From a virus: a stretch of DNA of 22,081 bases. The notes beneath the pieces were generated by a model. That model was not told where the DNA came from, did not search any database, and saw only the letters and a list, made by a program, of their open reading frames with translations. Location: positions 1 through 22,081 of IMG/VR virus record IMGVR_UViG_3300042673_000600. The stretch is one strand, 5' to 3'. Positions 2,774 through 20,909 of this stretch are shown piece after piece (the first letter of the stretch is position 1; every line of letters begins with the position of its first letter). Position numbers and translations under genes: made by a program.

Positions 2774-3034
2774 TTAACCTAATTCTTCTTCTTTCTTTGG
2801 TTCTGCTTTTTTACTAGTAAATTTATCCAAAGTATCTGCACCCATACCGATAGCAGTAATTACCATTACGGCATTTACTAATTCAGCGGCTGGTTTGAAA
2901 TGGTCTTCGGAAAATGAATTAGCCAACATTGTACCACATAAGAATAACGCACCTATAAATGCGATTACTGGTTTTACGGAAATTGCTCCTCTTTCATCTT
3001 TGAAAATGTCAATTGCCCACTCTTTAAATGTCAT
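2774..3034 (-). CDS. Holin-like small membrane protein
   Basis: 86 residues with a cytoplasmic-looking N-terminus (1-19), a first membrane segment (about 21-40, KPVIAFIGALFLCGTMLANS), a short acidic turn, a second segment (about 49-67) and a Lys/Glu-rich soluble tail. Two segments with a charged tail and the closing 'GADTLDKF' pattern fit small two-helix phage holins, which make lesions in the inner membrane to time lysis. The start has one of the few good Shine-Dalgarno sites here (TAAGGGAG, 5 nt from ATG), suggesting strong or independently tuned translation. It is the last gene before the terminator and follows two other membrane proteins. No endolysin is visible in the window, so the lysis assignment is inference; it could instead be a structural membrane protein. 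Confidence 0.55.
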   Translation of the reverse strand: MTFKEWAIDIFKDERGAISVKPVIAFIGALFLCGTMLANSFSEDHFKPAAELVNAVMVITAIGMGADTLDKFTSKKAEPKKEEELG

Positions 3035-3039
3035 AATTA

Positions 3040-3047
3040 CTCCCTTA
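3040..3047 (-). promoter_or_regulatory. Shine-Dalgarno site TAAGGGAG for the holin-like gene
   Basis: On the minus strand TAAGGGAG is followed by five bases and ATG at 3034. Most starts in the window lack such a site and have only A/T-rich leaders, so this one stands out and supports the start chosen. Confidence 0.65.
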
Positions 3048-3084
3048 TTTTTGTTGTTATGATTATTTTTTATTTAACACCCTA

Positions 3085-3438
3085 TTACCATTTAGGTGCT
3101 TCTTCTTTGAACTCATCACCTTCTTTCTTTTTAGGTTTTGGTGCTGCAGTTGCAGGAGTTGCACTTTTTTCTTTAATGATTACTGTTTTAGTTCCACCAC
3201 CGGCTGCTTGTTGTTGAGCCGGTATGTTGATGTTGATTGATTGAGGTTGAACTTGTTTATCACTCTCTTTTGGTTTTTGCATATAAGTCATTAAGAATGC
3301 TCCACCTGCCGTTACTAATGTACCAATTGTACCAATCATAGTTTTTTTCAAACCACTCATTGTACCATCATTATGTTTTTCGTTTTTAGCCATTGCAACT
3401 TCCTCAGTTGTTTTGGTTGTTTTTGTTGCCTTTGCCAT
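3085..3438 (-). CDS. Single-pass membrane protein with Gln/Lys-rich tail, unknown
   Basis: 117 residues. The N-terminal 30 residues are polar and rich in Lys and Thr; one membrane segment spans about 33-53 (TMIGTIGTLVTAGGAFLMTY). Then comes a low-complexity tail with a Gln/Asn/Ile patch, QQQ, a Lys-rich hinge and an acidic end closing in Trp. There is no cleavable signal peptide. Topology could be N-in with the tail in the periplasm, which would suit a spanin-like or holin-regulating role, but no motif shows this. It lies between the 239-residue membrane protein and the holin-like gene, with 41-50 nt gaps, and has the AATAAAATATAATATG type leader. Function unknown; it starts MAKATK, with a possible internal start at Met16. 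Confidence 0.6.
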   Translation of the reverse strand: MAKATKTTKTTEEVAMAKNEKHNDGTMSGLKKTMIGTIGTLVTAGGAFLMTYMQKPKESDKQVQPQSININIPAQQQAAGGGTKTVIIKEKSATPATAAPKPKKKEGDEFKEEAPKW

Positions 3439-4211: not shown

Positions 4212-4577
4212 TTATATTTTGTTAAAATCTGTTATTCCTAATTGATTACCTTTGTTATCAAATAATGCAATTCTATATGCTGATGATGGTAATGCGGTTG
4301 TATATACTTTTAATATATTATCCCCAACTTTTACTTCACTTGTTGATTTAGATACTACTCTATTTGAGATATCGAATATTTTTATTGTTACTATTTGTGT
4401 AGTTTCACTTTTAACATTCATAGATACCTGTGATGTTACAAATGGTGATTCTAATTTAATACCACTTACACTATTGATTGCTAATTCCGATGGTACTTTA
4501 TTTATTGGTATTGGTACATCTATTTTTGTACATCCTACAAATACCAGGACTAACGCTATTAAAATTAATTTCTTCAT
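4212..4577 (-). CDS. Lipoprotein with Ig-like/T9SS-tail-like domain (paralogue of the next gene upstream)
   Basis: 121 residues. MKKLILIALVLVFVGC is a lipoprotein signal with the lipobox VFVGC (Cys16 is acylated). After the Cys come Thr-Lys-Ile-Asp, a partial match to the Bacteroidetes surface-export signal for lipoproteins (Cys-x-Lys followed by acidic residues). A Pro-rich linker leads to a beta-sandwich-like domain (about 45-121) with strands 'IKIFDISNRVV', 'VGDNILKVYT' and 'YRIALFDNKG', which resembles the Ig-like type A sorting domain of the type IX secretion system. That likeness may be only of fold. It starts one base after the stop of its paralogue. Likely outer-membrane or surface anchored; partner proteins in the cassette are probable but not shown. 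Confidence 0.68.
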   Translation of the reverse strand: MKKLILIALVLVFVGCTKIDVPIPINKVPSELAINSVSGIKLESPFVTSQVSMNVKSETTQIVTIKIFDISNRVVSKSTSEVKVGDNILKVYTTALPSSAYRIALFDNKGNQLGITDFNKI

Positions 4578-4578
4578 T

Positions 4579-4923
4579 TTATTTTATTATTATTGTTGTT
4601 TTACCTATTTTAGTTTTTGTAACATCTTCCAATAACAAATATAAATATTTACTTTGTAGTCCTTTAGTGTATATTTTCTTTTTATTTATTCCAATTTGTC
4701 CATTAAATCTTTCTCTTGTCAAAACTTGGTTGGTTGTACTATCACCTACTGTTAAAGTATATACACCATTTTTAGTTAAATCAAATTGTATTTCTTGTCC
4801 GTTTTCTACACTACTTTGTGGCACACTAAACACACTTACAATAATTGGTTTTGGTTCAGGTCTAACTTCTACCTTTCTACACCCTACCAAAGTCAATACT
4901 AATATGAATAATATCTTTTTCAT
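4579..4923 (-). CDS. Lipoprotein, paralogue of the following gene
   Basis: 114 residues. MKKILFILVLTLVGC carries the lipobox TLVGC (Cys15), then Arg-Lys-Val-Glu-Val, again the partial Cys-x-Lys-x-acidic export-like motif, and a Pro-rich linker. The remaining 80 residues form a predicted beta-sandwich. Its end aligns by eye with that of the next lipoprotein (KIYTKGL against KVYTTAL, then LLLEDVTKTKIGKT against IALFDNKGNQLGIT), so the pair arose by duplication. Its ATG shares a base with the stop of the beta-barrel gene (TAATG), tying the two in translation, as expected if the lipoprotein is an accessory of the barrel. No enzymatic motif is seen. Confidence 0.68.
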   Translation of the reverse strand: MKKILFILVLTLVGCRKVEVRPEPKPIIVSVFSVPQSSVENGQEIQFDLTKNGVYTLTVGDSTTNQVLTRERFNGQIGINKKKIYTKGLQSKYLYLLLEDVTKTKIGKTTIIIK

Positions 4924-5825
4924 TAAAATTGAAAGTTTGTTCCTATCATAAATAGAATTGGGTTACTCTTTTTATATCCAACCGACTCACTTAATTTATC
5001 CCAAGTTGTATTATATCTGATATTAGTGTTTAATATAAATCTTTTAGTTATTTTCCAATCCATAGATGTACCATAATATAAGTCCAAATTGAAATCATCT
5101 AAATATGCTAAATCCGATGCCGTTCCATCTTTGAATACTTTGTAGATATCACTCATAGCAAATATTTGTGGTGAGATGTTTACTCTTTTTGTTTTCAATG
5201 TATAGGTGTACATTGCCATACCCCTATAAGTTATTTGAGATGCTGCCGGCATTGTTGGATAAATTAAACCCACAAAATTACCATCGGTGTCTACTGTATA
5301 TTTTCCTTCCCACTCACCGTCGTATGTTCCCCAAAAAGATTTTGATGCAATTACACTATAACCAAATGTTCCCCATTTTTTAGTTCTAAATACATCTATG
5401 AATGATAAGGTAATATCTTTTTGGAAATTAAAGTCGGTTGAGTAAAATGATTGCAATGTAGTAGTTCTTGTATCCGTATTTCTACTAAAACCATAACCTA
5501 CTCCATAATAATTCCATATAGGATTTATTGATGATGCGAATGAGTGACCCCATTTACCATTATTTGATGTTTTACTATATCCCAAATTTAAGGTAGTAGA
5601 TACTTGCTTTCCAATTATACCTACTGAAAGGTTTGAAGATGAAAGTACATCTTTTGAAAAATCAATATACGACTCTAATATACCTAAATTATTCCAATCA
5701 CTACTTTCTCCAAATAATTCTTTTGGTGATAGTTGTAATGTATCAGGTGGTTGTATTTGTCCGAAAGCTTTATCTGTAATTAAACAAGCAATTATAAATG
5801 TTATAAATACTATTAAATGTCTCAT
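4923..5825 (-). CDS. Outer-membrane beta-barrel-like protein
   Basis: 300 residues. The signal peptide MRHLIVFITFIIACLITDKAFG precedes Gln23, the expected +1 Gln. From about residue 65 the sequence alternates polar and aromatic residues in many short segments (for example TLNLGYSKTS, YYGVGYGFSR, FGYSVIASKSF, ILNTNIRYNTTW), and the protein ends in Phe after GTNFQF, the C-terminal aromatic signal recognised by the BAM machinery. Length and pattern fit a 10-14-strand outer-membrane barrel. It is coupled by TAATG both to the PA14/cohesin-like gene before it and the lipoprotein gene after it. It could be a pore, an anchor for the secreted proteins, or a receptor mask. Phage-encoded barrels are uncommon. 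No closer family is recognised. Confidence 0.7.
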   Translation of the reverse strand: MRHLIVFITFIIACLITDKAFGQIQPPDTLQLSPKELFGESSDWNNLGILESYIDFSKDVLSSSNLSVGIIGKQVSTTLNLGYSKTSNNGKWGHSFASSINPIWNYYGVGYGFSRNTDTRTTTLQSFYSTDFNFQKDITLSFIDVFRTKKWGTFGYSVIASKSFWGTYDGEWEGKYTVDTDGNFVGLIYPTMPAASQITYRGMAMYTYTLKTKRVNISPQIFAMSDIYKVFKDGTASDLAYLDDFNLDLYYGTSMDWKITKRFILNTNIRYNTTWDKLSESVGYKKSNPILFMIGTNFQF

Positions 5826-7747
5826 TAGTTTATTCTTACTTTTAATGATTTTCCATCTTTATTAACTGCGTCCGTTGAACCTATTGAAATTAAACCCAAT
5901 ATATTATCCAATTTTGTGTTTGACGAAAATGAAATCTTATATGTTGTCATTTTATCTAAACTTGTACTACCATCACTTACCAACGAACCCAAATTGATGT
6001 AATCACCCTTATCACTTGCATAGTTAGTAGGTGAACCCTTTGTGGTAAATTGTATTCCTTTGAACTTTAACACCGAATTATCATAGTTTAATTGGAATTG
6101 AGTACCTACTACATTTTGTCCTAATGGGTCTAATGTGATGTAAGCATAAATACTATCACCAATTATTTCCGTCATTATAGATGCGTTAATATCGGTACTA
6201 ACCACATTCATAGTTTTAATACTCATTGTAGTAATACCATTTGACTTAGGTGTTGTTGAGTGAGATACATTTACATCACCTTTCCAAGCCATTGTTAAGT
6301 TTAATGTATCGGATGCTTTACCTGTGTTTATATCAAATGAATACCCACTACCCAATGGTGTTGTAAATGTTGTCCAATTAGATTTACCAATACTATCATA
6401 TTTTGTTTGTGGTATAATTCTCATTGTTTTATTTAAGTTGAATGTATCCACTAATGTTTTTGCTCCTGTCAAATTTTGTAGTAATGCAAAACAATCTGCT
6501 TCATTAAAATATCCATCATCATTTATATCTGCATTCTTATACTGAATACCATATGTAAATTCATTACCACTTTGATTTCCAAATATTCCACCATTTGCCA
6601 ATTCCTTAAATGCCAAATAAACATCCGACACCGTCACAATACTATTATATAAAGTTGATATTGTATTTGTAGTTGTTACGGATATTGATTGAGGTTTATA
6701 TGTGGATGATTGTGAAAATGTAAATTCTGCTTGTAATCCATAAAATCCATTTCCTGCTCTTATGTTTGATGAAAATGAAGAACCTGAAAAGTTAAATTGT
6801 GTAGGAGTATAAACATAAACTTCTGTCCAACCATTAGGGTCGTATGAATTAAATGTTACCGGGCCATCCCATAAATCAAATAATTGTAAACTACTGATTG
6901 ATGATGGTGTTGATAATATACCATTTACTTCTCTACTATCTATTCCAATTCTATATCTTTGGTTGGTTGCATCGTATTGATAAATTACACACCACTCTAC
7001 TCCACCATTAGTTGTTGATGCTTTATAACCACCACTACTTACTTTAACACTATCTAAACTTGTTGTTATATCAACCAAACCTGCCGAACTTAATGCCGAA
7101 CCTACTGCAAATGTTGTTGCAGTTAGATTGGTATTCAAATTAAAATTAGCTACTGCTTTTTTAGTTGGTGTGGTATTAATATTAGTAACTTCTTCATTCC
7201 AATAAGAATATGTGTTTGGTGCACTTGGTCTAGACCATCTTACATAAAGTGCATCACCACCACCATACTCTTGGTATCTAACCACAATTTTATATCTTGT
7301 GCCTGCAACCATATTTGTTGAACCATATTGATATGCACTCGCACCATGCCCACCATAGTAAGTTGCTATTATTGTTCCGTCTACTGATATATCGCTCGCA
7401 TCATCTGAATTAATACCAAATGAATAACTACCTGTTTGTGTTGGGATAAACCAAAATTCAAATTTAATTGCATATAAATCACCTCCCCAATGCGGTGTTC
7501 CGGTTGAACCATCACACATAGTTGCAAGTGTAACTTCTCCCGTATGTGTTATAGTTGTATTTGAGTTTGCCGTATTTAACATATTGTCAAATTCGGCAGC
7601 TGTGTATGGAAATTGAAGGTATTGGTTTGTTACCCCCGTACCATTATGTGTCTTATAAGAGGTATAATTAACATAACCCACTCCTGATTGAGAGTAGGTT
7701 ATGAATGATAATATTGTTAAGAGGAATGTAACTAATAATTTTTTCAT
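5825..7747 (-). CDS. Secreted PA14 / dockerin-loop / cohesin-like protein
   Basis: 640 residues. Signal peptide 1-19 (ends TYS|Q). Residues about 22-185 look like a PA14 domain, a carbohydrate-binding beta-barrel (FEFWFIPTQTGSYSFGINSDDASDISVDG and RWSRP blocks; key residues Asp115-Asp116 in the typical SDDxS position). A middle beta-rich region follows. DINDDGYFNEAD at 407-418 is a textbook dockerin/EF-hand calcium loop (Asp407, Asn409, Asp411, Gly412, Asp418), single rather than duplicated. Residues about 520-640 resemble a cohesin (VVGTQFQLNYDNSVLKFKGI at 546-565). Residues 370-640 align with the C-terminal half of the next gene upstream. Likely extracellular, binding glycans and perhaps assembling with its paralogue through cohesin/dockerin-like contacts. 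Tail-fibre identity is unlikely because of the signal peptide. Confidence 0.72.
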   Translation of the reverse strand: MKKLLVTFLLTILSFITYSQSGVGYVNYTSYKTHNGTGVTNQYLQFPYTAAEFDNMLNTANSNTTITHTGEVTLATMCDGSTGTPHWGGDLYAIKFEFWFIPTQTGSYSFGINSDDASDISVDGTIIATYYGGHGASAYQYGSTNMVAGTRYKIVVRYQEYGGGDALYVRWSRPSAPNTYSYWNEEVTNINTTPTKKAVANFNLNTNLTATTFAVGSALSSAGLVDITTSLDSVKVSSGGYKASTTNGGVEWCVIYQYDATNQRYRIGIDSREVNGILSTPSSISSLQLFDLWDGPVTFNSYDPNGWTEVYVYTPTQFNFSGSSFSSNIRAGNGFYGLQAEFTFSQSSTYKPQSISVTTTNTISTLYNSIVTVSDVYLAFKELANGGIFGNQSGNEFTYGIQYKNADINDDGYFNEADCFALLQNLTGAKTLVDTFNLNKTMRIIPQTKYDSIGKSNWTTFTTPLGSGYSFDINTGKASDTLNLTMAWKGDVNVSHSTTPKSNGITTMSIKTMNVVSTDINASIMTEIIGDSIYAYITLDPLGQNVVGTQFQLNYDNSVLKFKGIQFTTKGSPTNYASDKGDYINLGSLVSDGSTSLDKMTTYKISFSSNTKLDNILGLISIGSTDAVNKDGKSLKVRIN

Positions 7748-9396
7748 TATTCAACTATTAGGTTAATCTTATTTCCTGCTCCATCAACTGCGTCAGCTAA
7801 AACTGTATAGAATAAACCTGCAGTATTTGTTATAGTTTCTTTTGGAATAAATGTTAATTTGTATGGAGTACCTGTTTTAATTCTACCAATTTTTGTCTGG
7901 TCCATAGAACCAAATGTTAATCTACCATCTCCGTTTGTTGAAAAGTTGGTCACATTTGCACCTGCGTCAAATGAAATATTGTCAAAAGTTAATTTAGTAT
8001 TATCGTATTGTAAGATTACTTCTAAACCTGCTAATCCTTCTTTTGTCAATGTACCCGTTAATACCACTTTACCATTAACAATTGTGGAATTCAATCCCAA
8101 TATTGCCTTTTCAATTAATTGAGTGTATGCCATTGATTGAACTGAAAATGATTTGATTGTTGCCGTACCATCTTTTATTGAATTGGAATAATTTCCAGTA
8201 GAAACTCTACTTGCAATTGTGTCAGGATGAGATGAATGAGACCAATCCAAATCGCCACCCCATGCATAAACCATATCTATTGATTGATTTGATGCCGTTA
8301 CTTTTGTTTTATACGCAGGTACACCATCTAACCAACTTTGATTCAATAATCCACTAAACCATTTGAATTGGCCACCGTTTGTACTTAATGGAATCCATGC
8401 ACTATCTTTTACATTAGCAATACCCATTACATATGCAAATGCGTAATATGAATCACTTTCACTAAATACACTTTTATTTTTTGTAATTTGTCCTATATTT
8501 TTTTCTAATACAGGTCTTGTAAAATATGTAGCAGTACCATTGATATTGGTTTGTGAGATACCTAAAAATGATTTATATGCGTCCGATACTGTAATGATGT
8601 TATTCATAAAAGTTTTTCCAGTAGCACCATACATCCATACTGCCAAACTATCACCCACTTTAACTTCCGTTGTAAATGTTGCCTCACCACTTGCATCCAA
8701 TGCTTTACTTGCAATAGGTGTTACATTCCAATCAATAGTACCATCCGTTTTTATTGGAAATAATGCAACTGTATGTGCAGTAATATCATATCCTGATGGG
8801 TATAAAACTCTTACTTTGAATTGAGATGTGTTACCCGTTACATTTGTTAATGACATTGTACCTGGGTCGGTTGTAATTGGAGTAATGTATGCACTTGCGG
8901 CATCTATTGAATATGATAAGTCCAATTTGTGAATATCGGTATATGCACCCAAATCTTTGATTGTATATTTTTGAGTTGCAATGTCTCCATTGATTGATGC
9001 ATCCGTTCTTTGTACAGTTAATTGACCCACATTCCAATCTGCGTTAGTTGCGTAACCCCATGGATTTATTAAATATTGTGCATATAAATCTTTAGCCGTA
9101 ATACTATTTGCCGTACTTGCTGTAAATTTATACGATGTCCAACTTGTGTAATATGTTTGTACCGATGTTCCTTGTGAGAATGTGGTTGAAACATATGCTA
9201 GTGCTTTGTTATTATATTGATATCTTAACCAAAAATAACGAGGTGTAGTTGTACCTCTTGCAACTGTATATTTTACTGAAATTGTGTCACCAACCTTTAA
9301 ACCTGTTGTAGGTGTTACTGATTGATTGATTGTTAATTGTGCATTTGTTGCTATGGATATTACTAGTATTCCAAGTAGCACTAAAAGTTTTTTCAT
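7747..9396 (-). CDS. Secreted protein with cohesin-like C-terminal domain (paralogue of PA14 protein)
   Basis: 549 residues. Signal peptide 1-19 (ends TNA|Q). The N-terminal part (about 22-130) is beta-rich, with a 'VGDTISVKYTV ... WLRYQYNNKAL' pattern that itself resembles a cohesin or fibronectin-like module. The C-terminal part (about 428-549) has the cohesin-like block GLAGLEVILQYDNTKLTFDN (454-473). From IITVSDAYKSFLG (267-279) to the end it aligns by eye with the PA14 protein: VTVSDVYLAF, the SESDSYYAFAYVMGI segment against the dockerin loop, and MVYAWGGDLDWSHSS against LTMAWKGDVNVSHST. Here the calcium ligands of the loop are lost. The start is 2 bases after the upstream gene's stop, and the stop overlaps the next ATG (TAATG). 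Probably an extracellular scaffold; no catalytic domain is seen. Confidence 0.72.
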   Translation of the reverse strand: MKKLLVLLGILVISIATNAQLTINQSVTPTTGLKVGDTISVKYTVARGTTTPRYFWLRYQYNNKALAYVSTTFSQGTSVQTYYTSWTSYKFTASTANSITAKDLYAQYLINPWGYATNADWNVGQLTVQRTDASINGDIATQKYTIKDLGAYTDIHKLDLSYSIDAASAYITPITTDPGTMSLTNVTGNTSQFKVRVLYPSGYDITAHTVALFPIKTDGTIDWNVTPIASKALDASGEATFTTEVKVGDSLAVWMYGATGKTFMNNIITVSDAYKSFLGISQTNINGTATYFTRPVLEKNIGQITKNKSVFSESDSYYAFAYVMGIANVKDSAWIPLSTNGGQFKWFSGLLNQSWLDGVPAYKTKVTASNQSIDMVYAWGGDLDWSHSSHPDTIASRVSTGNYSNSIKDGTATIKSFSVQSMAYTQLIEKAILGLNSTIVNGKVVLTGTLTKEGLAGLEVILQYDNTKLTFDNISFDAGANVTNFSTNGDGRLTFGSMDQTKIGRIKTGTPYKLTFIPKETITNTAGLFYTVLADAVDGAGNKINLIVE

Positions 9397-9398
9397 TT

Positions 9399-10052
9399 TT
9401 ATTTGGCCTCAAATAGTTTAGTGATTAGTTTGTCACAACTTTTCTTAAGTGCATTACTTAAGGATGTTTGATTAAAACCACCACCTTCACCAATTATCAA
9501 TGTACTCATTGAAATCTCCGAAGATGATTCTTCCACTATAACTACTTTGTCCTTTTTCCCTTCGGATTTTAGAACACCTCTTAAACGAATAACTACTGCT
9601 TCTTCTCCACTATGGAAAATAGAAACATTTTTCTTTGTAGTCAAAACATCCAAATATATAATTTGAACTGATAGTTTGTTTGGTGCTGATGAAGATAAGT
9701 TATATCCTTTATCCTGTAAATATTCTTCTAAGATACTTTTTACACCGAATTCTAATTTACGATTACCTGCTAACTTACCAATTTTAACTTCGTTGGTAAC
9801 TGATTCAATTGTGATTTGATCATCTGCATTGTACCAAATATTGTTAGGGTCATTTTTAAATGTCCCATCAATTTTCCAAGCAATTTCATTTGCTATTTGT
9901 TGTTCTTGTGCGTATGTACCAAAAAAGTGCACACCCAATAGGTATAGTGAAAAGCACAATGCAAATACAACCCATACCCCTAATAAACCTACCAAACCCT
10001 TTAAAATGATTTGGTCTAAATTTTCTTTGAAATTTAATAACTTCGCTTTCAT
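9399..10052 (-). CDS. Membrane-anchored CsgG/YajG-like envelope protein
   Basis: 217 residues. An amphipathic N-terminus (1-17) precedes a long hydrophobic segment (about 18-43), followed by GTYAQEQQ, which could be a cleavage site (YA|Q) or a periplasmic stalk. The soluble part has helix-strand order of the YajG/CsgG fold group: KSILEEYLQDKGY (about 105-117), strand SVQIIYLDVL, strand VVIRLRGVLKS, strand KVVIVEESSSEIS, then a C-terminal helix FNQTSLSNALKKSCDKLITK. That last block resembles FNQSTISIATKKALDIAC of the CsgG-like protein at 584-1303, although overall likeness is weak. It is the first gene of the tightly packed envelope cassette and has the best ribosome-binding site in the window. 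A role in assembling or exporting the following secreted proteins is inference. Confidence 0.6.
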   Translation of the reverse strand: MKAKLLNFKENLDQIILKGLVGLLGVWVVFALCFSLYLLGVHFFGTYAQEQQIANEIAWKIDGTFKNDPNNIWYNADDQITIESVTNEVKIGKLAGNRKLEFGVKSILEEYLQDKGYNLSSSAPNKLSVQIIYLDVLTTKKNVSIFHSGEEAVVIRLRGVLKSEGKKDKVVIVEESSSEISMSTLIIGEGGGFNQTSLSNALKKSCDKLITKLFEAK

Positions 10053-16084: not shown

Positions 16085-17257
16085 TTAACCAAAAAATTTA
16101 GTGAATATTTCCTTATTTACCACATTATTGTTCCTTAATTGTTGAATTGGGAGTAATAATTCACCATATCCCTCAATTCCGTCACCGATGTACTCATGAC
16201 AATAGGATGCTCTTTGTTTTAACTTACTATATACCTTTGAATGATTGTTAGTATGCATTCTAAGTTTACCATTAAAAACAGTTGGTTTCCATTTTTCTAT
16301 GGTTTTGTTTCTATACTCACCCAATGCAGGATTGATAGTTTTTGTATAATATTTACCACCCGTATTTTTAATTATACCCGCACTAAACTCCGATATCTTA
16401 CTACCGATTCCCATACCTTGATAATCAGGTAGAACCACAACCCTACTTCCTCTAAAAGATTTCTCTACATTATTTCTACCAATATGTCTACCTATTACAC
16501 TCATCGCAATCGGTTTATCATTCCATTCAAACAATAAGAAAATATATGTTTCGTTTACATCCTCAGTTAGATAGTGATGTTTTTTGAAGAGGTCGAAAGT
16601 TTCTGCTTCAACCCTACTAACTTGTAAAGAGATTTCTGGTCTTCCGAGCCGAAGTAAGTCAGCTCTAACAATGCTGCCTCCGATTTCGGGTGAATACGTC
16701 CAATCAGGTAGTAACCATTCCATAATATCAAAATGACAGGATGCTAATATAATTTTCTTATTCTCTCTACGGATATACTTTTGTAATGCAAAACTCATTG
16801 CCTTAGCAACATCTCTATCAACCACCGATGTATATTCATCAATTAGAATTATATCACCATCATTTGCCTTTGCAATAGTGTAAGCTAAGGTTGCTCTATA
16901 TTGCTCACCATTACTTAACAAATGAAAAGGTCTTAACCAAGTTGGAACTGATGATAATCCTATTGATGTTAGAACTCTACTTGCTTGCTCCGGTTCTAAC
17001 CAATCAAAGTTTGAAATCAATGCCTTCTCTTTATCAAATTCTATTTCCTTTACTCCACCTAATGTATTAAGTATCGTTGATTTACCACACCCACTACCAC
17101 CATATATAACCCCAATGTTCCAATCAAATGAATTAAGACCATCTAAGTTCATAGGAATAGACACAATGGTTTCCTCTCTATTTTGAATATCAAATGTATC
17201 ATACACATAGTTAGTGTATTTATCATTTTGTATTTTTGATTTTAATTCTATATTCAT
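16085..17257 (-). CDS. ABC-type ATPase fused to GNAT acetyltransferase domain (COG2401-like)
   Basis: 390 residues. The first half is an ABC ATPase: Walker A GGSGCGKST (53-61), signature LSNGEQ (114-119), Walker B IILIDE (136-141) and the H-loop His175 in ASCHFD. There are no membrane segments, so it is not a transporter half. The second half (about 212-330) is a GNAT fold: FDLFKKHHYLTEDV, then a strand pair with KPIAMSVIGRH, and the acetyl-CoA loop VVLPDYQGMGIGSKI (274-288, Gln280-Gly-x-Gly-x-Gly). The fusion matches COG2401. GNAT proteins related to phage Mu Mom modify adenine in DNA, so an ATP-driven DNA-base modifier is a plausible role; acylation of protein or tRNA is an alternative. The gene is between polymerase (3-nt gap) and clamp. 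Confidence 0.82.
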   Translation of the reverse strand: MNIELKSKIQNDKYTNYVYDTFDIQNREETIVSIPMNLDGLNSFDWNIGVIYGGSGCGKSTILNTLGGVKEIEFDKEKALISNFDWLEPEQASRVLTSIGLSSVPTWLRPFHLLSNGEQYRATLAYTIAKANDGDIILIDEYTSVVDRDVAKAMSFALQKYIRRENKKIILASCHFDIMEWLLPDWTYSPEIGGSIVRADLLRLGRPEISLQVSRVEAETFDLFKKHHYLTEDVNETYIFLLFEWNDKPIAMSVIGRHIGRNNVEKSFRGSRVVVLPDYQGMGIGSKISEFSAGIIKNTGGKYYTKTINPALGEYRNKTIEKWKPTVFNGKLRMHTNNHSKVYSKLKQRASYCHEYIGDGIEGYGELLLPIQQLRNNNVVNKEIFTKFFG

Positions 17258-19824: not shown

Positions 19825-20355
19825 TTATTTAATCTTTAATTTGAATTTTTTTCCGGATGGAATTGAATAAATTGCGAAGATGGGAGTTACTTGAAATTGT
19901 ATATCTCGCATTCTATTTGTGTATGATTGCCACATTTCTTTTTCTAAATAAGCAATTGTCATATGTGGTCTATAATCTGTAAATTCGTTTGAGTTTGGTA
20001 GTTTACTCAATAGTTGATGTGCTTTTTCTAATCCATCGCCCACTGCATCCATTTTTAATACATCATAGTTATTACTTTCAAAAACTGAAACGTTACTTAA
20101 TTGTATATCTCCAAAATGAATAGTGTCTAACATTTGTTGAACTATTTGTGGAGTTACATTAGAATGCAATCCATATAACAAAGTGACGTGTGGTTCGGTT
20201 TCTTTACCATATTTACCACTACCATCATCGTAAATATCTTTATCATCTATAATACCGGTAAGTTGACTTTCGTTAAAATCAAAGTATAACATTACACACC
20301 CATATTCAAAGGGGCCTCTTTCAATCTCTTTTAATAATTTTCTTAGTTTAATCAC
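19825..20355 (-). CDS. 2H phosphoesterase, LigT / 2'-5' RNA ligase-like
   Basis: 176 residues with the two HxT motifs that define the family, His56-Val-Thr58 (EPHVTLLYGL) and His131-Met-Thr133 (RPHMTIAYL), in the usual bilobed spacing. These enzymes open or form 2',3'-cyclic or 2'-5' phosphodiester bonds in RNA or small nucleotides. In phages, 2H phosphoesterases can repair RNA or cleave cyclic-nucleotide or 2'-5' oligoadenylate defence signals; which applies here is inference. The start is GTG at 20355, overlapping the stop of the nucleosidase gene as GTGA; no ATG lies nearby. Likely co-translated with it. Confidence 0.85.
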   Translation of the reverse strand: MIKLRKLLKEIERGPFEYGCVMLYFDFNESQLTGIIDDKDIYDDGSGKYGKETEPHVTLLYGLHSNVTPQIVQQMLDTIHFGDIQLSNVSVFESNNYDVLKMDAVGDGLEKAHQLLSKLPNSNEFTDYRPHMTIAYLEKEMWQSYTNRMRDIQFQVTPIFAIYSIPSGKKFKLKIK

Positions 20356-20909
20356 GACACTTTAAACTCTTCCTTTAATTTCTGCAAAAATAATTCAATA
20401 CCTTTGTTGTGATTTTTTTTCCAATCGTTTGCATCACCATTATCGGAAATAAATTTATATGATGTAAAATCAAATCCATAAATCTTACATACTTTTGCAA
20501 TTGAATATGCTTCCATATCACATATAGAACGTTTTGTATTACTTTGAAATGTATCGGTAGTAAAACATACATCACTATTACCAAATATTAAAGTACCTGC
20601 TTCTAATTTAGGATAAATTAAGTCATCAAATGGAGTAATGTATTTTTTTGCAAATTGTTTAGTATCTATATCACCTTGTTGGAATTGTAAACATTTAATA
20701 AGTTCACCAATTTTATAATCACACGAACCGGCTGAACCATAATTAATAACCATAGTTTCGGATGGTGATAACTCTTTTAATATTTCGGTTGCTTTAATTG
20801 CTGCATTTACTTTACCTACACCTGTATAAATAACATCTACTCCCAATGGTGCTTTCTCTTTTGGAAACTCACTCGGTAATGCAACAAATAGTTTAATTCT
20901 CATACTCAT
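20352..20909 (-). CDS. MTA/SAH nucleosidase-like protein (purine nucleoside phosphorylase fold)
   Basis: 185 residues against about 230 for cellular MTA/SAH nucleosidase, so it is compact. Motifs: ALPSEFPKE (10-18, Glu14 in place of the base-site Glu12 of E. coli), TGVGKVNAA (29-37), INYGSAGS (55-62), CDMEAYSIA (130-138, Glu133 binding the ribose) and FISDNGD (153-159, Asp156 as catalytic acid). It would split methylthioadenosine or S-adenosylhomocysteine into adenine and a thio-sugar, removing the product that inhibits methyltransferases such as the one encoded at 13755-15320. A purine-nucleoside phosphorylase or NAD/AMP-directed activity is an alternative. It is between the SGNH-like gene (9-nt gap) and the LigT-like gene. 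Confidence 0.78.
   Translation of the reverse strand: MSMRIKLFVALPSEFPKEKAPLGVDVIYTGVGKVNAAIKATEILKELSPSETMVINYGSAGSCDYKIGELIKCLQFQQGDIDTKQFAKKYITPFDDLIYPKLEAGTLIFGNSDVCFTTDTFQSNTKRSICDMEAYSIAKVCKIYGFDFTSYKFISDNGDANDWKKNHNKGIELFLQKLKEEFKVS

Follow-up and report, generated by a model that had tools for sequence, protein, structure and literature searches.

Why would a phage with T4-type replication genes carry, side by side, two exported proteins that both end in a cohesin-like domain? The window analysed here, a 22 kb IMG/VR record, encodes a family B DNA polymerase and a clamp loader (PHROGs), and the host of the virus is a Bacteroidota bacterium. A preliminary description of the locus had proposed a tandem duplication with division of labour, perhaps into a calcium-binding partner and a scaffold, and had pointed out that cohesin and dockerin are unusual in a phage, a setting that our analysis bears out. 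Phage proteins displayed on the Bacteroidota host surface during infection are poorly known. Our reading, to which we give a probability of about 0.6, is that the two proteins form a phage-encoded, surface-anchored lectin display system on the infected Bacteroidota cell.

A gene pair with a common C-terminal half

ORF A (7747-9396, 549 aa) and ORF B (5825-7747, 640 aa) are both intact and lie adjacent, head to tail, on the minus strand, as do their parts, the two lipoprotein genes and the genes at 584-1303, 4923-5825 and 9399-10052 discussed below. The AlphaFold model of A is good (pLDDT 88.6) and that of B fair (81.8). According to AlphaFold, Foldseek and profile comparison, A, the exported constant partner, consists of a signal peptide with Gln at +1, an N-terminal beta region, an Ig-like middle, a degenerate dockerin-like helical region that has lost its calcium loop (8422-8613, residues 262-325; model and profile comparison) and a cohesin-like beta sandwich (7750-8115, residues 428-549; AlphaFold and Foldseek). 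B, the exported head-bearing partner, was divided with Pfam, AlphaFold and Foldseek into an exchangeable head, here PA14 (7163-7690, Pfam stretch residues 100-175), a middle beta module recognised by its sequence, VEW...DGPV (6680-7162, residues about 196-356), a half-dockerin with a Pfam Dockerin_1 match below cut-off (6464-6658, residues 364-428), in which the sequence and the relatives place the EF-type calcium loop DINDDGYFNEAD (6494-6529, residues 407-418), and a cohesin-like beta sandwich (5828-6199, residues 517-640; Pfam Cohesin and Foldseek). The VEW...DGPV module precedes the dockerin in window B, is found inside the dockerin-GD region in single-gene forms (for example L268, 5707-7818) and is absent in L044, an instance of module shuffling.

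The duplication is confirmed. Residues 365-639 of B and 262-548 of A are homologous over about 300 columns at 23% identity (BLASTP E=1e-11), and in profile-profile comparison A and B reach 99.2% over the cohesin-like part and 98.3% over the dockerin-like one. Three elements make up the common half: a dockerin-like unit with one loop (a "half" dockerin), the motif GD[VL][ND]xSHS and a cohesin fold. The N-terminal halves do differ as described earlier, with PA14 in B and, in the AlphaFold model of A, an all-beta region without PA14, which is homologous to the S and T forms introduced below (91-94.5%, profile-profile). A second cohesin in the A N-terminus was considered and is not claimed, profile comparison giving only 1-13%.

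The cohesin-like end, first noticed by eye, agrees with the structural comparison: both models match solved cohesins with a Foldseek probability of 1.00 and a TM-score of up to 0.69 by target length. Pfam Cohesin (PF00963) reaches 6.8e-4 and 20.3 bits in window B against a cut-off of 24.1, has no match in window A and passes the cut-off in three homologues (L077 25.0, L048 26.5 and L268 29.2 bits). The models thus point to a cohesin fold at the C-terminal ends of A and B, which may bind dockerin.

The calcium loop DINDDGYFNEAD is intact in window B, whereas window A has the shorter KNKSVFSESD instead, and a pattern match across relatives finds an EF-type loop in 88 of 90 distinct B proteins and in none of the 96 distinct A proteins; A and B therefore diverged long ago, and the difference is fixed. 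Even B has a single loop, as against the two that define a type I dockerin, with the first repeat degenerate; A has none. Dockerin_1 (PF00404) is above the Pfam cut-off of 22.9 bits in no protein tested, the best being L044 (18.3 bits, E=0.0027), and window B reaches 11.4 bits (E=0.4). The claim that one copy kept a calcium loop and the other lost it therefore stands, and the loop of B is of EF type, but its assignment to a dockerin holds only in part, for a single loop and sub-threshold matches. In a tree of the dockerin region A forms one group and B another (SH-aLRT 100 and 96%), which indicates a single old origin for each family; the A stem is very long, with a long-branch warning, so that A and B can be called sisters only tentatively.

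Cellulosomal cohesin and type I dockerin share with A and B the cohesin fold and the EF-type dockerin loop. A and B differ from the cellulosome in having one calcium loop and not two, no enzymes, no multi-cohesin scaffoldin among the proteins seen, and sugar-binding-type heads in the place of catalytic modules. Pfam found no catalytic domain in A, B, their homologues or the other scanned exported cassette proteins, and the combination that marks a cellulosome, a scaffoldin with several cohesins together with dockerin-bearing enzymes, was not found. With Dockerin_1 below threshold and a cohesin-like domain in both A and B as well, we abandoned the cellulosome analogy. The presence of that domain on both proteins also makes the idea of one binding partner and one scaffold too simple for the pair, although calcium binding by one of the two is in keeping with a loop found in B only.

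Cassette variants and the small lipoproteins

The pair is part of a modular cassette whose variants, namely the pair, a single-gene form (S), a form with a fused T9SS sorting domain (T) and a lectin-dockerin split, make a natural comparison set. Our scans gave 60 loci with A and 76 with B, a set that by design depends on one of the two genes; a separate scan, with gene 584-1303 as query, recovered the same organisation and, in addition, variants. This gene encodes a conserved exported protein of 239 aa and matches more than 480 IMG/VR stretches, so the cassette is widespread. Among INPHARED phage records, A had no match, and B matched only at the level of PA14. B follows A directly wherever both genes are covered, the sole exception seen being L122, with about 360 bases between them.

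A signal peptide with Gln at +1, identified by pattern, is present in 93/96 A, 90/90 B, 14/14 S and 22/24 T proteins. Gln in this position after the signal peptide (the Q-rule) fits a Bacteroidota host. Export of A and B is thereby well supported at the sequence level. These signal peptides, present on nearly all members, also weigh on a different interpretation, in which A and B belong to the virion, as fibres or as decorations of the head, and attach to polysaccharide of the host. Both proteins are large and all-beta, and sugar-binding heads are swapped between phages like receptor-binding modules; however, given the Sec signal peptides, relatives that end in T9SS sorting domains and the linkage to lipoprotein genes, we regard a place in the virion as highly improbable.

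Cassettes were counted after de-duplication and where fully covered from the first gene (9399-10052 in the window, with weak similarity to Lipoprotein_16, Pfam 1.1e-4, 22.5 bits versus a cut-off of 25) to the 584-1303 homologue, which set aside 11 patterns cut upstream of the first gene and L239, which runs off the contig end. All 73 A+B cassettes, among them L261, where B is broken, and L043, where the order is rearranged, carry two genes for small lipoproteins, lp1 (4579-4923) and lp2 (4212-4577). Each of the 14 S cassettes has exactly one lipoprotein, and none of the 20 T cassettes, in which the one gene has a fused sorting domain, has any. Pfam places this domain close to its cut-off of 27 in T homologues (L256 27.2 bits, L258 25.5) and finds no C-terminal T9SS sorting domain in window A and B. 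L263 keeps A and lp2 only, both B and lp1 being absent, and this cassette comparison suggests that A is paired with lp2 and B with lp1. Between B and lp1, about half of the cassettes have the gene found at 4923-5825 in the window, which encodes a predicted exported protein, outer-membrane barrel-like by eye from its sequence (median identity 85%); together with 584-1303 (median identity 81%) it is among the most conserved cassette parts.

The two lipoproteins are homologous to each other (95-99%, profile-profile), and the lipobox cysteine is invariant in their alignment. Similarity to the sorting domain Por_Secre_tail, in 13 of 32 lipoproteins (best 3.4e-4), and to DUF3244, in 16 of 32 (best 2.8e-5), is weak, also for lp2 of the window, and would weakly fit a stand-alone sorting-domain-like fold. 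Compared directly by profile, the lipoproteins resemble the T sorting domain weakly as well (probability 4-29%), so that we do not put forward the lipoprotein as a sorting domain by homology; the idea of a split sorting domain, as we infer it, draws mainly on the complementarity of the genes together with the weak Pfam matches.

That complementarity is strict, and it argues against A and B being released in soluble form, for example as a coating on debris or as matrix, with the lipoproteins as periplasmic chaperones and not anchors. Release would agree with the lack of a sorting domain in window A and B and with the fact that lp1 rarely carries C-X-K-(D/E)2 behind the lipobox, the motif published as the optimal signal for surface export (PMC5080379). 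This signal occurs in 32/93 lp2, 5/93 lp1 and 0/13 single-form lipoproteins, and other species use other signals. The lp2 matches, like the complementarity, speak for anchoring, and we consider release unlikely.

T phages offer a further comparison. A separate downstream lectin-dockerin gene is present in 26 of the 29 T loci whose sequence continues for more than 5.5 kb downstream; as for the remaining three, L258 and L308 have a longer, 766-aa version and L296 is the L258 contig. The T-phage lectin-dockerin protein ends right after GDVNxSHS and has neither cohesin, sorting domain nor lipoprotein; no lectin-dockerin gene was found downstream among the A/B loci. This split is the best, if indirect, support for a relation between a dockerin client and a cohesin scaffold. 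A division of labour is accordingly upheld in another form than first imagined, with A constant, B carrying an exchangeable lectin head, and related phages distributing the lectin-dockerin and cohesin functions over two proteins.

An exchangeable lectin head and its possible use

The head of window B matches PA14 (PF07691) at 3.5e-8 and 33.8 bits, above the Pfam cut-off of 24, and Foldseek relates it to the Flo1/Flo5/Epa lectins of yeast and to the sugar-binding PA14 of bacterial RTX adhesins, which suggests that B heads may bind carbohydrate. Flo1, Flo5 and Epa1 share the PA14-type lectin head fold with B, but they are eukaryotic and anchored differently. Across the family, PA14, Lectin_C, LCCL and Cohesin are found above the Pfam cut-off, and the heads of 90 distinct pairs comprise 53 C-type lectin, 19 PA14, 17 C-type lectin+LCCL and one unassigned. 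On the A tree the head changes at least 20 times, compared with a mean of 33 under shuffling. The A proteins of the window and of L003 share 93% identity, yet L003 B bears C-type lectin+LCCL at its head and is only 55% identical to window B over the part they have in common. The reverse is seen with L061, whose B is 85% and whose A is 66% identical to that of the window. These discordant identities show that B moves between phages independently of A.

A reasonable model that unites these data is that A and B are exported via the host Sec pathway and retained on the outside of the infected cell. B would present its carbohydrate-binding head, PA14 in this phage, on a stalk ending in the half-dockerin and cohesin unit, and A would provide such a unit without calcium ligands behind its constant beta region. 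lp2 would anchor A and lp1 would anchor B, in place of the T9SS sorting domain still found at the C-terminus of close relatives. Dockerin-to-cohesin contacts, B-A or B-B, could build a mixed array with the heads exposed, through which it would attach to glycans on the host or on cells nearby. It is reasonable to expect anchoring and assembly, given the gene complementarity and the T-phage split; the surface location and the glycan binding are likely by analogy with the relatives and with the head folds.

The most likely benefit would be masking of receptors against competing phages, a tentative proposal, and holding cells together would come second. In the latter scenario infected cells with a lectin coat would catch uninfected siblings, which then serve as the next hosts. 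The heads are lectin-like, with flocculins and adhesins as the closest fold matches, the last gene of a comparable cassette in phage HTVC008M encodes PA14 together with curlin repeats, and "sibling capture" has been proposed for the curli genes of pelagiphages (PMC7029224); however, the curli-bearing phage Melnitz showed no clumping (PMC9004378), and aggregation appears to us an improbable main function. On a wider scale, one might speculate, with considerable doubt, that a large clade of aquatic T4-like phages makes a cohesin-dockerin lectin coat on infected cells, with the sorting domain of an ancestral host protein split off into one lipoprotein per displayed protein and the heads exchanged so as to track host glycans for superinfection exclusion.

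The HTVC008M cassette (gp014-gp018) resembles that of A and B as an exported set whose last gene puts a PA14 head on a shared stalk module. It differs in that the stalk consists of curlin repeats, CsgG is clear, CsgF is annotated and there is no cohesin-like domain. This analogous gene order, with a similarity of 584-1303 to CsgG seen by eye, raises the question of whether our cassette could be a curli (type VIII) secretion system that has diverged. Twenty-one members of the 584-1303 family gave no Pfam CsgG match, neither Pfam nor PDB searches found a relative of it, and profile comparison with 81 phage CsgG reached 5.7%, at the N-terminus only. These results do not support 584-1303 as CsgG, and we think a curli origin of the cassette very unlikely. 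In HTVC008M, gp018 (L135 10638-11963) combines PA14 with curlin repeats (Curlin_rpt 5.2e-8, 5 stretches), and gp016 (L135 8871-9557) is similar to the repeat part of gp018. L148 and others match gp018 with the repeat (stalk) part alone, so the head varies there too. CsgA and CsgB are stated to be missing in these phages (PMC7029224, PMC9004378).

Returning to the surface lectin display, phage-encoded T9SS cargo is already known from Cryophage, and this kind of protein is hence not new. According to the available part of that report (PMC7468147), the cargo includes a PA14 protein and varies between phage variants. It is like A and B in being phage-encoded, exported and variable, with PA14 in one protein, and unlike them in having its own sorting domain; cohesin or dockerin, a two-gene form and lipoproteins are not described in that part. 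In the literature searched, which included few subscription journals, we found neither the cohesin-dockerin pair nor the swapping of lectin heads nor the lipoprotein complementarity. The cassette variants allow direct tests of surface anchoring, of the pairing of cohesin and dockerin outside cellulosomes and of competition between phages through lectins.

Cellular relatives and other genes of the window

Bacteroidota proteins (L330, L331, L336 and L342) have the order Ig-like domain, one-loop dockerin, GD motif, cohesin-like domain and sorting domain, with one clear calcium loop by eye and a profile match of domain E=7e-12 for L336. A genome-contig search with the T alignment returned no relative; a motif search and a wider profile search of 395 genomes found some, the latter in 19 of the 395 genomes of the sampled phylum. 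T9SS cargo of this type (L336, L342, L330) shares with A and B the domain order from Ig-like to cohesin-like but is cellular, while A and B have no sorting domain but partner lipoproteins, and B additionally bears a lectin head. Judging from their sequences, such Bacteroidota dockerin-cohesin-T9SS proteins are the likely source of the A/B architecture. The top BFVD match of the A model (E=1.5e-21) is to a phage protein that bears the name "Secretion system C-terminal sorting domain".

Several other genes of the window deserve mention. Two small predicted membrane proteins (2774-3034 and 3085-3438) are kept in most cassettes, L008 and L129 having a further membrane protein between their homologues, and 2774-3438 is possibly a lysis-type module. 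The product of 19825-20355 is 2H phosphoesterase-like, scoring 27.5 against a cut-off of 27 for the Acb1 (anti-CBASS) family and passing the cut-off for 2_5_RNA_ligase2, which makes a counter-defence gene possible. An ABC-type ATPase and a GNAT acetyltransferase-like domain occur in an apparent fusion at 16085-17257, and 20352-20909 encodes a phosphorylase-superfamily nucleosidase in this phage genome (PNP_UDP_1, 5.5e-11).
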